Positions 5,033 through 20,600 of a DNA stretch of 50,235 bases are shown here, in pieces. The number at the start of each line of letters is the position of its first letter. Positions within the stretch are counted from its first letter, which is position 1. The position numbers and the translations under genes were made by a program. Origin of the DNA: Rhodoferax sp. (GTDB taxonomy: Bacteria; Pseudomonadota; Gammaproteobacteria; Burkholderiales; Burkholderiaceae_C); the NCBI GenBank assembly GCA_020048895.1, contig JAIFLV010000046.1:1-50235 (forward strand). The letters run 5' to 3'. A model generated the notes under the pieces. It was not told where the DNA came from, did not search any database, and saw only the letters and a program-made list of their open reading frames with translations.

Positions 5033-5383
5033 TTAACGCCCCAAATGCTCGGGCACCAGCAACCGCTCAACAACCTTGCCATTCTTGAGATGGGAGTCCA
5101 CGATTTCGTCGATATCAGTGCTATCTACATAGGTGTACCAGACGCCTTCCGGGTACACCACGGCAACGGGTCCCGCGGCACAGCGGTCCAAGCAACCCGC
5201 CTTGTTCACCCGTACCTGCCCCGGTCCCGATAGTCCGGCCTCCTTGACCCGTTGCTTGCATCGGTCAAACCCCTCCTGCGCATGCTGCTGTGCACAACAC
5301 TCTTCACCGGCTTTACGTTCGTTCAAGCAGAAAAAGATGTGGCGTGTGTAGTAACTCTTGGGACTGTTGGTTGTTGCATTCAT
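5033..5383 (-). CDS. Thioredoxin-fold [2Fe-2S] ferredoxin
   Basis: This 116-residue protein belongs to the thioredoxin-like 2Fe-2S ferredoxin family. Candidate cluster ligands are C19, C30, C64 and C68, spaced C-x10-C-x33-C-x3-C, with the conserved surround NKAGCLDRCAAGPVAVVYPEG in two pieces. An extra C29 sits beside C30. Its electron partner cannot be told from the sequence. The start codon overlaps the stop of the VanZ-like gene by 4 bp (ATGA), so the two are probably translationally coupled. The 203 bp between it and dacC hold no recognisable gene. Confidence 0.85.
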   Translation of the reverse strand: MNATTNSPKSYYTRHIFFCLNERKAGEECCAQQHAQEGFDRCKQRVKEAGLSGPGQVRVNKAGCLDRCAAGPVAVVYPEGVWYTYVDSTDIDEIVDSHLKNGKVVERLLVPEHLGR

Positions 5384-6483
5384 GTATCGATTCTAGTTTT
5401 GCTATCTGAGCGCCCCAACTGCAGCAGTACATAAACGAGCGCGGCGTAGGGCCACAGCCAGCCCAACCACTGGGCCAGCCCGTGAAACCGGATAAACCTG
5501 CCCTGCTCCCAGGCTTGCAATGTCTGCGCGAAATACGGACTCTCGGGTGCCTGATTGAGCAGACTGAGGTACACCCCCAATGCCAACAACAGCAGGGCTG
5601 CGCTTGACCTCCACGAAACCAGCGACAGCGCCAATGAAATCACCACGCACAGGCCTATACCCAGCACGGCAGGCGTCCCCAACCACGCCCAGGCGTGGGC
5701 TGGCCCCCAGCTGAGCGCGGCCGAGAGCGCTGTTGCCGCGACGCCAAGCAGCGTCATCACGCCTACCAGCCACAGACGCCGCCGCATGGAACGCACGACG
5801 CAAAATCCCAACAAGCAGGGAATCAGAAGCCCCAGAAACACACACACCAGTTCTGCACCCGAGCCTAGCGGCGTCAAGGGGGTTAGACGTTGGGGCAGCC
5901 ACGAGGCAAAACCGGTTCCCGCCAACTGCTGTGTCAGGACTTCTTCCAAGCGGGACTGGATCTGGCCCAACCCAAATGGCACAGCAGCCGGGAACATCAA
6001 CGCCACCGGCCAGGTCGCCAGCAACACCATGCCGCCACGCGATTGCTCGACAAACCAGCGTGCGCGCAAGCGACTCCAGCGCCGGATTACTCCCCAGCGA
6101 TCGAGCAAAAGGGTGGCGAGTGCGCCCATCGCTGCACCCGCGGCGTTGAGCAGCAGGTCTTCGCGTGACGCCACGCGCGAGGGCAAGTAGCTTTGCAGCG
6201 CCTCCAGAGTGAAGGAAAGCACGCCGCACACCAGCACCGCCACCCATGCGGCGTGGCGACGTCGGGCCCGCAAGACGCTGAGCGCAAGTAGCGCCCCCAG
6301 TGGTACATATCCCGCCAGATTGATGGTCACGTCAAAGCCGGTCCAGTAACGCGGCCAGGGGGCAAACAGAAATCCCCAAGGCAGCAAACCCTGATCGCGC
6401 CAGCCCGAAAACGGATAGAGACTGGCGTACACGATCAGCGCCACATAAGCCAGGGCCAGGGGGGAAGCGGAGGTTTTGTGCAT
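5380..6483 (-). CDS. VanZ-like family integral membrane protein
   Basis: This 367-residue, very hydrophobic protein has about nine or ten predicted membrane segments. Its N-terminal half carries the VanZ-like pattern: ALAYVALIVYASLYPFSGW, then NLAGYVPLGALLAL, then a loop with LPSRVASREDLLLNAAGAA. VanZ-like proteins have no settled biochemical role outside teicoplanin resistance, so no function is assigned. The assigned ATG (6483-6481) lies only 3 bp after the T-tract of a strong intrinsic terminator, so this start has almost no leader of its own. Either the gene is read from terminator read-through or translation starts further in. It is coupled to the ferredoxin gene downstream. Confidence 0.8.
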   Translation of the reverse strand: MHKTSASPLALAYVALIVYASLYPFSGWRDQGLLPWGFLFAPWPRYWTGFDVTINLAGYVPLGALLALSVLRARRRHAAWVAVLVCGVLSFTLEALQSYLPSRVASREDLLLNAAGAAMGALATLLLDRWGVIRRWSRLRARWFVEQSRGGMVLLATWPVALMFPAAVPFGLGQIQSRLEEVLTQQLAGTGFASWLPQRLTPLTPLGSGAELVCVFLGLLIPCLLGFCVVRSMRRRLWLVGVMTLLGVAATALSAALSWGPAHAWAWLGTPAVLGIGLCVVISLALSLVSWRSSAALLLLALGVYLSLLNQAPESPYFAQTLQAWEQGRFIRFHGLAQWLGWLWPYAALVYVLLQLGRSDSKTRIDT

Positions 6484-6486
6484 TCC

Positions 6487-6515
6487 AAAAAAAACCCCAG
6501 CACAAGGGCTGGGGT
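6487..6515 (-). terminator. Intrinsic terminator of the putative sRNA
   Basis: On the minus strand, ACCCCAGC (6515-6508), loop CCTTGT and GCTGGGGT (6501-6494) form an 8-bp GC-rich stem that runs straight into eight T residues (6494-6487). This is a textbook rho-independent terminator. It lies immediately upstream of the VanZ-like start codon. Confidence 0.85.
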
Positions 6516-6589
6516 GGTAAGCCTATTTGCTGTCACACATCAAGGCCCCGCTCAGGGAGGAAAAGCGGGAGGTAGCAAGCTACCCGGGT
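6487..6589 (-). ncRNA. Putative trans-acting small RNA with anti-Shine-Dalgarno loop
   Basis: This stretch has all the parts of an independent sRNA gene of about 100 nt. Reading the minus strand, hairpin 1 is GGTAG-CTTG-CTACC (6584-6571, a stable CUUG tetraloop). Hairpin 2 is CCCGCT/AGCGGG with an 11-nt loop TTTCCTCCCTG (6569-6547). A roughly 30-nt less structured linker follows, then a strong intrinsic terminator. The CCUCCC in the hairpin 2 loop is complementary to Shine-Dalgarno sequences, as in several alpha- and beta-proteobacterial Hfq-dependent sRNAs. No open reading frame is evident. I could not match it to a named RNA family; it does not look like 6S, 4.5S or tmRNA. Confidence 0.6.
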
Positions 6590-6592
6590 GGA

Positions 6593-6621
6593 AATATAGC
6601 AATACTTTTGCATCCCTGCAA
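6593..6621 (-). promoter_or_regulatory. Sigma-70-type promoter of the putative sRNA
   Basis: On the minus strand, -35 TTGCAG (6621-6616) and -10 TATATT (6598-6593) are separated by 17 nt. The predicted start is at about 6589-6586, directly before the first hairpin of the putative sRNA. The spacing and both hexamers are close to consensus. Confidence 0.55.
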
Positions 6622-6716
6622 CCTTTTTCGTGCAGATTTCATCGAAATGCCTGGACGAGCTATCGCCAACTTTACAAAGAGTCGCACATTTACTGTCTTG
6701 GGCACGGATATATTGA

Positions 6717-7767
<1,051 letters not shown>

Positions 7768-7769
<2 letters not shown>

Positions 7770-7802
7770 CTGCCTGCGCAATATCCACTTGCGCAAACGG
7801 CA
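7768..7802 (+). repeat. 35-bp palindromic repeat, copy 1
   Basis: The sequence begins AGCTGCCTGCGCAATATCC and ends GCGCAAACGGCA. The core TGCGCAA/TTGCGCA is a 7-bp inverted repeat with a 7-nt loop. Two other copies occur in this window (18807-18841 and, inverted, 47622-47656). All three are 35 bp and align without gaps as AGCTGCyTGCGC, a TCCA-like centre, GCGC and GGCA. This copy starts inside the hemB stop codon and is followed by CTTTTT, so it may serve as a weak terminator. Confidence 0.6.
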
Positions 7803-20420: not shown

Positions 20421-20600
20421 GTGAGAACTCCAGGGGCCAGTAAATACCAAAGACTGCACGGCATCCCCGGCCCAATCACGGAGGCAGTGCAGTCAAAGGT
20501 CTTGCCAGGCTAAGCGCTGTTGCTGCCATGGCCAGCTGGCCAAGTCTGTTGACAGGAACCCCTGTGTGTGCAGGGCGGCTACTCCCCAATGACGAGTGCG
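20421..20600 (-). promoter_or_regulatory. yybP-ykoY manganese riboswitch leader
   Basis: The minus strand carries the family's conserved segments in order. GGGGAGTAGCC (from about 20588) comes first, then TGTCAACAGACTTGGCC, CATGGCAGC, and GCCTGGCAAGACCTTTGACT leading to GCCTCC (to about 20480). The expression platform is visible: GACTGCAC at 20494-20487 can pair with GTGCAGTC at 20459-20452, and the gene's GGAG ribosome binding site lies beyond in a GC-rich tract. A -10-like TATACT (20612-20607) with a poor -35 lies at the 3' end of the neighbouring gene. The aptamer sits directly in front of a UPF0016 manganese exporter gene, its usual partner. Confidence 0.87.

Follow-up and report, generated by a model that had tools for sequence, protein, structure and literature searches.

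The window, by which we mean the whole 50,235-nucleotide stretch of DNA that was analyzed from Rhodoferax sp., a freshwater bacterium, carries a small RNA gene on the minus strand at positions 6487 to 6589. It lies between hemB (6744 to 7769, plus strand; PF00490, E = 2.1e−139), which encodes 5-aminolevulinate dehydratase and is transcribed divergently, and a VanZ-like gene (5380 to 6483, minus strand; PF04892, E = 5.7e−12), whose ATG follows the T run of the RNA after 3 bases. A sequence-only reading had placed a small RNA here and left its family unnamed. A cmscan of the window supplied the name: the Rfam family RF02837, "Burkholderia RNA 7 (anti-hemB)," matches positions 6487 to 6572 over the full model (1 to 81) with 56 bits (curated cut-off, 49.5). 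The consensus hairpins H2 and H3 and the terminator are present, and hemB adjoins. The gene is real, as the family match, the fold, and the covariation all bear out, and it is not new in kind: the predicted transcript of about 103 nt is a further member of a family already catalogued in Rfam, and the earlier impression of novelty is corrected in this respect. Our own full-length covariance model, R1, which was built from 65 rows of Burkholderiales only, matches positions 6487 to 6591 at 102.8 bits, a score that holds by construction because the window copy is one of these rows.

The same genome contains a second copy over the cut-off (C75:42492-42561; 55.8 bits), flanked by the C-terminal domain of a type I restriction subunit and a gene for a tubulin/FtsZ-like GTPase. 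A weak third match, C161, was not counted as a copy; it reaches 30 bits with RF02837 and 22.0 bits with R1, below the DsrA control, and its H2 loop is devoid of CCUCC. Elsewhere in the window, a yybP-ykoY manganese riboswitch (RF00080; 86.3 bits) is found at positions 20425 to 20599 of the minus strand.

Relatives of this RNA have been described in Burkholderia. The passages of PMC5688073 that concern ncS04 of B. cenocepacia J2315 equate it with anti-hemB and give a length of 105 nt, detection by RNA-seq and Northern blotting, and a 3′ end mapped by RACE. They state binding to Hfq, citing that paper's reference 17, and report no significant change under the conditions of its Table 2. Anti-hemB of B. 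pseudomallei is listed among the homologues of known RNAs in an excerpt of PMC3521395, and Bc7 appears in part of the review PMC6321483 as one of 24 RNAs copurified with Hfq, with hemB as its predicted target. The "anti-HemB" of PMC6515984 is an antibody unrelated to the RNA. The window copy shares with ncS04 and its RF02837 relatives the H2 loop, H3, the terminator, and, as at most order-level loci, the divergent hemB. It differs in its sigma-70-like promoter and in that a VanZ-like gene rather than engB lies downstream; its hairpin H1 has no place in the Rfam model.

Folding of positions 6589 to 6487 yielded −40.7 kcal/mol (z = −3.0; 1 of 200 shuffled sequences was equally good) and four hairpins. 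H1 (6585 to 6570), at the 5′ end, has a CUUG loop; H2 (6569 to 6547) presents the anti-Shine-Dalgarno loop UUCCUCCCU at positions 6562 to 6554; H3 (6546 to 6521) is an internal GCCU/AGGC hairpin; and H4 (6515 to 6487) is the intrinsic terminator, with its stem at 6515 to 6494 and its T run at 6494 to 6487. The sequence-only reading had described two hairpins, a CUUG loop in the first of them, and a strong terminator, all of which we recovered, and had overlooked H3; the loop sequence that it gave, TTTCCTCCCTG, extends the H2 loop by a single base at either end.

The hairpins are conserved outside the promoter and the terminator. Among 19 close relatives, the window copy included, H1 has changed on both sides at 6 of its 6 pairs, with 97.3% of the cells paired, and the structure as a whole has 12 pairs with two-sided change, where shuffling gives 4.6 (none of 500 shuffles was as high). 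The terminator stem covaries as well, and H3 is retained in relatives. RNAalifold on 65 dereplicated Burkholderiales sequences supported 17 pairs, 7 of them with two-sided changes. H1 is more than a chance fold: the mean z of its window is −1.21 in the genus (31 loci), −2.02 in the family (30), −2.31 in the order (30), and −2.73 in the class (16), against −0.01, −0.34, 0.12, and −0.41, respectively, in control windows. Stems of at least 5 pairs separate the two less sharply than does the fold z (98 of 107 H1 windows versus 46 of 107 upstream control windows). The Rfam model begins at the edge of H2 and leaves H1 almost wholly out. The motif CCTCCCTGAG is invariant in all 65 aligned Burkholderiales rows, in part by selection, because the model that retrieved these rows itself includes it. 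The H2 stem is nearly invariant too, a U-A pair replacing C-G at one position in 9 of the 65 rows, so that covariation can hardly test its pairing.

The RNA family is widespread among related genomes. RF02837 was found at an E-value of 0.001 in 60 of 61 genomes of the genus (57 over the cut-off), 167 of 200 of the family (157 over the cut-off), and 232 of 300 of the order (190 over the cut-off). In the class, 93 of 229 genomes had a match at an E-value of 1e−4, and 12 were over the cut-off, including the genome of the window and one from its family. None of the 14 control genomes exceeded the cut-off in any search; weak matches occurred in 3, 3, 3, and 1 of them. For the family, order, and class we compared two sets of loci among the matches listed, the best-scoring ones and, as a second sample, places that scored lower.

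What adjoins the RNA changes with distance from the window. A divergent hemB stands beside it at 30 of 31 genus loci, at 19 of 30 and 20 of 20 family loci, and at 26 of 30 and 24 of 40 order loci, and at none of the class loci (0 of 18 and 0 of 20). A HemJ-like gene (UPF0093 in Pfam; 113 bits with the HemJ model, below its cut-off of 138) follows the RNA on its own strand at 29 of 31 genus loci and at 15 of 30 and 19 of 20 family loci. It was not found at two genus loci, the window and L010, and in the window the VanZ-like ATG is just 3 bases away from the T run (6481 to 6487), as if after a deletion. The best named match of the VanZ-like protein is from an uncultured beta proteobacterium MAG (95%) and the next from a Rhodoferax MAG (72%); many of the 80 matches listed are from Rhodoferax, and on this ground the window is taken to be of Rhodoferax type. 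Two family-level copies (L043 and L047) lie near a gene for an RlmK/RlmL-like methyltransferase, and hemB was not found in the stretches fetched for them.

Outside the family, the usual neighbors are engB, called by NCBIfam (YihA/YsxC; 193 bits versus a cut-off of 124), and polA, called like hemB and VanZ by Pfam. In the order, engB adjoins 28 of the 30 top loci (25 convergent downstream and 3 upstream on the same strand) and 37 of the 40 in the second sample (25 convergent and 12 upstream). In the class, polA and/or engB adjoins 15 of 18 top loci (engB convergent at 11, polA upstream on the same strand at 10) and 18 of 20 in the second sample (12 and 13, respectively); L303 and L314 of that sample have the opposite polA/engB arrangement, and no loop was found in either. 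Overall, engB or polA stands beside the RNA at 65 of 70 order loci and 33 of 38 class loci. Neither gene was found near the RNA in the window or at the 81 genus and family loci (31, 30, and 20), and the positional link therefore rests on relatives outside the family.

The promoter also differs between the family and its surroundings. On the minus strand of the window, a TTGCAG (6621 to 6616) and a TATATT (6598 to 6593) are separated by 17 nt, and this sigma-70-like element (6593 to 6621) fits a transcript start near 6589 to 6586. A stricter consensus scan of positions 5300 to 7800 listed no promoter, so that in this single genome the match is a weak one and rests on its conservation among relatives. 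Such conservation was seen, and the promoter that had been read from the sequence was thereby borne out: with one pattern applied over one search span in all sets, and expected values taken from shuffles, TTG-N19..21-TANNNT occurs at 18 of 31 genus loci (2.3 expected) and at 12 of 30 (1.4) and 12 of 20 (1.0) family loci. Outside the family, the counts are 1 of 30 (1.2) and 6 of 40 (1.1) in the order and 2 of 16 (0.9) and 2 of 16 (0.3) in the class, the class sets having been reduced by loci at which no loop was found (L116 and L118 from 18; L302, L303, L308, and L314 from 20).

A second pattern, GAAC[TC]-N15..19-TCNNA, which we take to resemble sigma-E/AlgU promoters, has the opposite distribution. 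It occurs at 24 of 30 (0.12 expected) and 29 of 40 (0.32) order loci and at 9 of 16 (0.10) and 11 of 16 (0.12) class loci, and is absent from the genus (0 of 31, the window copy included) and the family (0 of 30 and 0 of 20). With the narrower spacer of 15 to 18, the top sets gave 23 of 30 in the order and 9 of 16 in the class. GAAC[TC] alone behaves alike, with 28 of 30 and 35 of 40 in the order and 14 of 16 and 15 of 16 in the class, compared with 2 of 31 in the genus and 3 of 30 and 4 of 20 in the family (2.0 to 5.9 expected per set). Judged by these motifs, a housekeeping promoter seems to have taken the place of a stress-type one in the family of the window.

What does the RNA do? The best explanation, to which we give a probability of about 0.8, is that it belongs to the anti-hemB family and acts in trans as a small regulatory RNA. 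The H2 loop (CCUCCCUGA) would block the translation of several mRNAs by pairing with their purine-rich ribosome binding sites, Hfq would bind at the U tail, and H1 may protect or space the 5′ end. In this Rhodoferax lineage the RNA would probably be made constantly, from the housekeeping promoter. Its position would make it the counterpart, in betaproteobacteria, of ErsA and sX13, the RNAs beside engB/polA, and hemB would be a neighbor and not a target. Translation block is the likeliest action by analogy with sX13, an RNA of the polA locus whose repression needs its C-rich loops and G-rich motifs in the targets, as described in sections of PMC3771888. The anti-Shine-Dalgarno loop of the sequence-only reading stands; its pairing with ribosome binding sites is something we continue to infer, because no target was identified.

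A loop-seeded target search, which the same reading had proposed, gave no nameable target from perfect complements. In 7 genomes of the genus, CAGGGAGGA followed after 2 to 10 nt by ATG was found at 17 places, compared with 1 for the pattern read backwards. The genome of the window has the 9-nt loop complement before an ATG twice, with frames of 29 and 13 codons only; G050 and G034 have several such places before frames of 195 to 501 codons. One site is common to two genomes (G007 and G058), and no other is shared.

An improbable alternative is a generic RNA directed against ribosome binding sites with broad toxic action, like those of RF02278. Both have CU-rich sequence complementary to ribosome binding sites, and overexpression of the RF02278 RNA ncS27 attenuates growth according to the relevant part of PMC5688073. 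However, the similarity to RF02278 is weak (19.9 bits, far below the cut-off of 50), the RNA has four hairpins where RF02278 RNAs are described as having two, and ncS04 did not change significantly under the conditions of Table 2 of PMC5688073, in which RF02278 RNAs did.

Slightly less probable still is control of hemB by the RNA, through antisense or loop pairing, the role that its name implies. The divergent hemB at most genus, family, and order loci and the target prediction for Bc7 speak for this idea. Against it, there is no overlap between the RNA and the hemB reading frame, hemB was found at none of the class loci, where polA and/or engB mostly adjoin the RNA, and hemB looks leaderless in Rhodoferax. 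Pairing energy led us to reject hemB as a loop target: across 64 start regions, the mean z with the loop was −0.29, z was below −2 in 4, and a Shine-Dalgarno-like sequence was present in 4. In the window, GGCACAATTTT and a few bases stand directly before the hemB ATG (6729 to 6746, plus strand), with no Shine-Dalgarno sequence, and most displayed genus rows repeat this arrangement of GGCACAATTTT and then ATG. The least probable alternative, that the hairpins and terminator are an attenuator or leader of the VanZ-like gene, is suggested by the direct same-strand adjacency in the window and contradicted by the relatives, in which the downstream neighbor is a HemJ-like gene or, outside the family, usually a convergent engB, so that the RNA is conserved without VanZ.

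We return to the RNA as a trans-acting regulator and to its relationship with named RNAs of other bacteria. Searches of the window's genome at an E-value of 0.01 gave no match to RF01719 (ErsA; cut-off, 50 bits), RF02232 (sX13; cut-off, 50 bits), or RF00021 (Spot 42; cut-off, 80 bits). In the class search, the ErsA model marked 19 places, of which 9 coincide with RF02837 places, and the sX13 model marked 12, of which 4 coincide, 3 of these in the genome G721. polA or engB is nearby at 11 of 12 fetched ErsA-model loci and 8 of 12 sX13-model loci (3 of them in G721). Only L124 (ErsA) and L136 and L137 (sX13) pass the cut-off of their own family; all three are beside polA, and engB was not found in them.

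ErsA is AlgU dependent, as stated in a portion of PMC8395346. The L124 match lies just downstream of polA, has a GAACT...TCATA promoter like that of the class RF02837 relatives, and shares a long C-rich unpaired stretch; sigma-E/AlgU-type promoters were not found at any of the 31 genus loci, the window copy among them, or the 50 family loci. L124 scored 9.4 bits with R1, less than unrelated RNAs. With sX13 the likeness consists of the polA-side position, the C-rich loops that serve repression, and bridging genomes that match both the RF02232 and RF02837 models; in contrast, sX13 is reported to act without Hfq. Spot 42 has the same order of polA, RNA, and engB (polA-spf-yihA in E. coli K-12, with yihA convergent) but is without sequence support.

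R1 scored 23.9, 16.9, 16.8, 13.6, and 13.4 bits on the unrelated E. coli RNAs DsrA, GcvB, FnrS, RprA, and GlmZ. Homology of Spot 42 by covariance score was rejected, spf reaching 13.0 bits, below all five. Since unrelated RNAs reach 23.9 bits, the low scores of R1 on Spot 42, ErsA, and the two sX13 matches over the cut-off (16.5 and 11.6 bits) are no evidence. R1 found nothing at the place of the model in L142 and L145, loci that only the ErsA or sX13 models had retrieved. With L109 left out, the other 17 of the 18 top loci in the class scored 38.8 to 55.3 bits with R1, above the 23.9-bit control; these loci had been chosen by RF02837. At 13 control loci from E. coli, one with Spot 42 and 12 with other RNAs, RF01719 and RF02232 had no match at an E-value of 5, and RF02837 reached at most 25.7 bits.

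In G721 (L125 and L138), four copies of the RNA stand in tandem between polA and engB and are best matched by different Rfam families. One is best with sX13 (48.3 bits against the cut-off of 50, and 35.9 with RF02837), and the others are best with RF02837 (41.8, 39.6, and 37.8 bits), one of them also reaching 37.1 bits with ErsA. Some gammaproteobacterial copies (L123, L125, and L128) also have matches below the cut-off (30 to 38 bits) to the alphaproteobacterial ar14 (RF02344).

From these comparisons we infer a single positional lineage made up of anti-hemB, ErsA, and sX13, for which sequence support is moderate, and absent in the case of Spot 42. The further reading, toward which we lean only a little, is that RF02837, RF01719, and RF02232 are one orthologous RNA gene, anchored 3′ of engB since before the split of beta- and gammaproteobacteria and ancestrally under an envelope-stress promoter of the sigma-E type. 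In the family of the window, this gene would have ended up in a hemB/HemJ-like setting and been rewired to a housekeeping promoter, from stress-induced to constant expression. Rfam has no clan for the three families. Parts of the literature come near the idea: the polA-side position and C-rich loops of sX13 have been compared with Spot 42 and the alphaproteobacterial alpha-r7 RNAs in a passage of PMC3771888, and ErsA is called a functional orthologue of Spot 42 in an extract from a review. Among the matches listed for the open-access PMC literature, none, as far as the excerpts go, joins anti-hemB to ErsA or sX13.

In summary, the gene itself extends a known RNA family for which we saw no established target, and the wider pattern outweighs it in importance, since several separately named RNAs may share one ancestral gene position. 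If the engB-side RNAs of beta- and gammaproteobacteria are one gene, the translation control by C-rich loops of ErsA and sX13 would offer a guide, open to testing, for work on the Burkholderiales. The switch of promoter class from one bacterial family to another would then, if true, clearly exemplify how the regulation of a conserved small RNA can be rewired.
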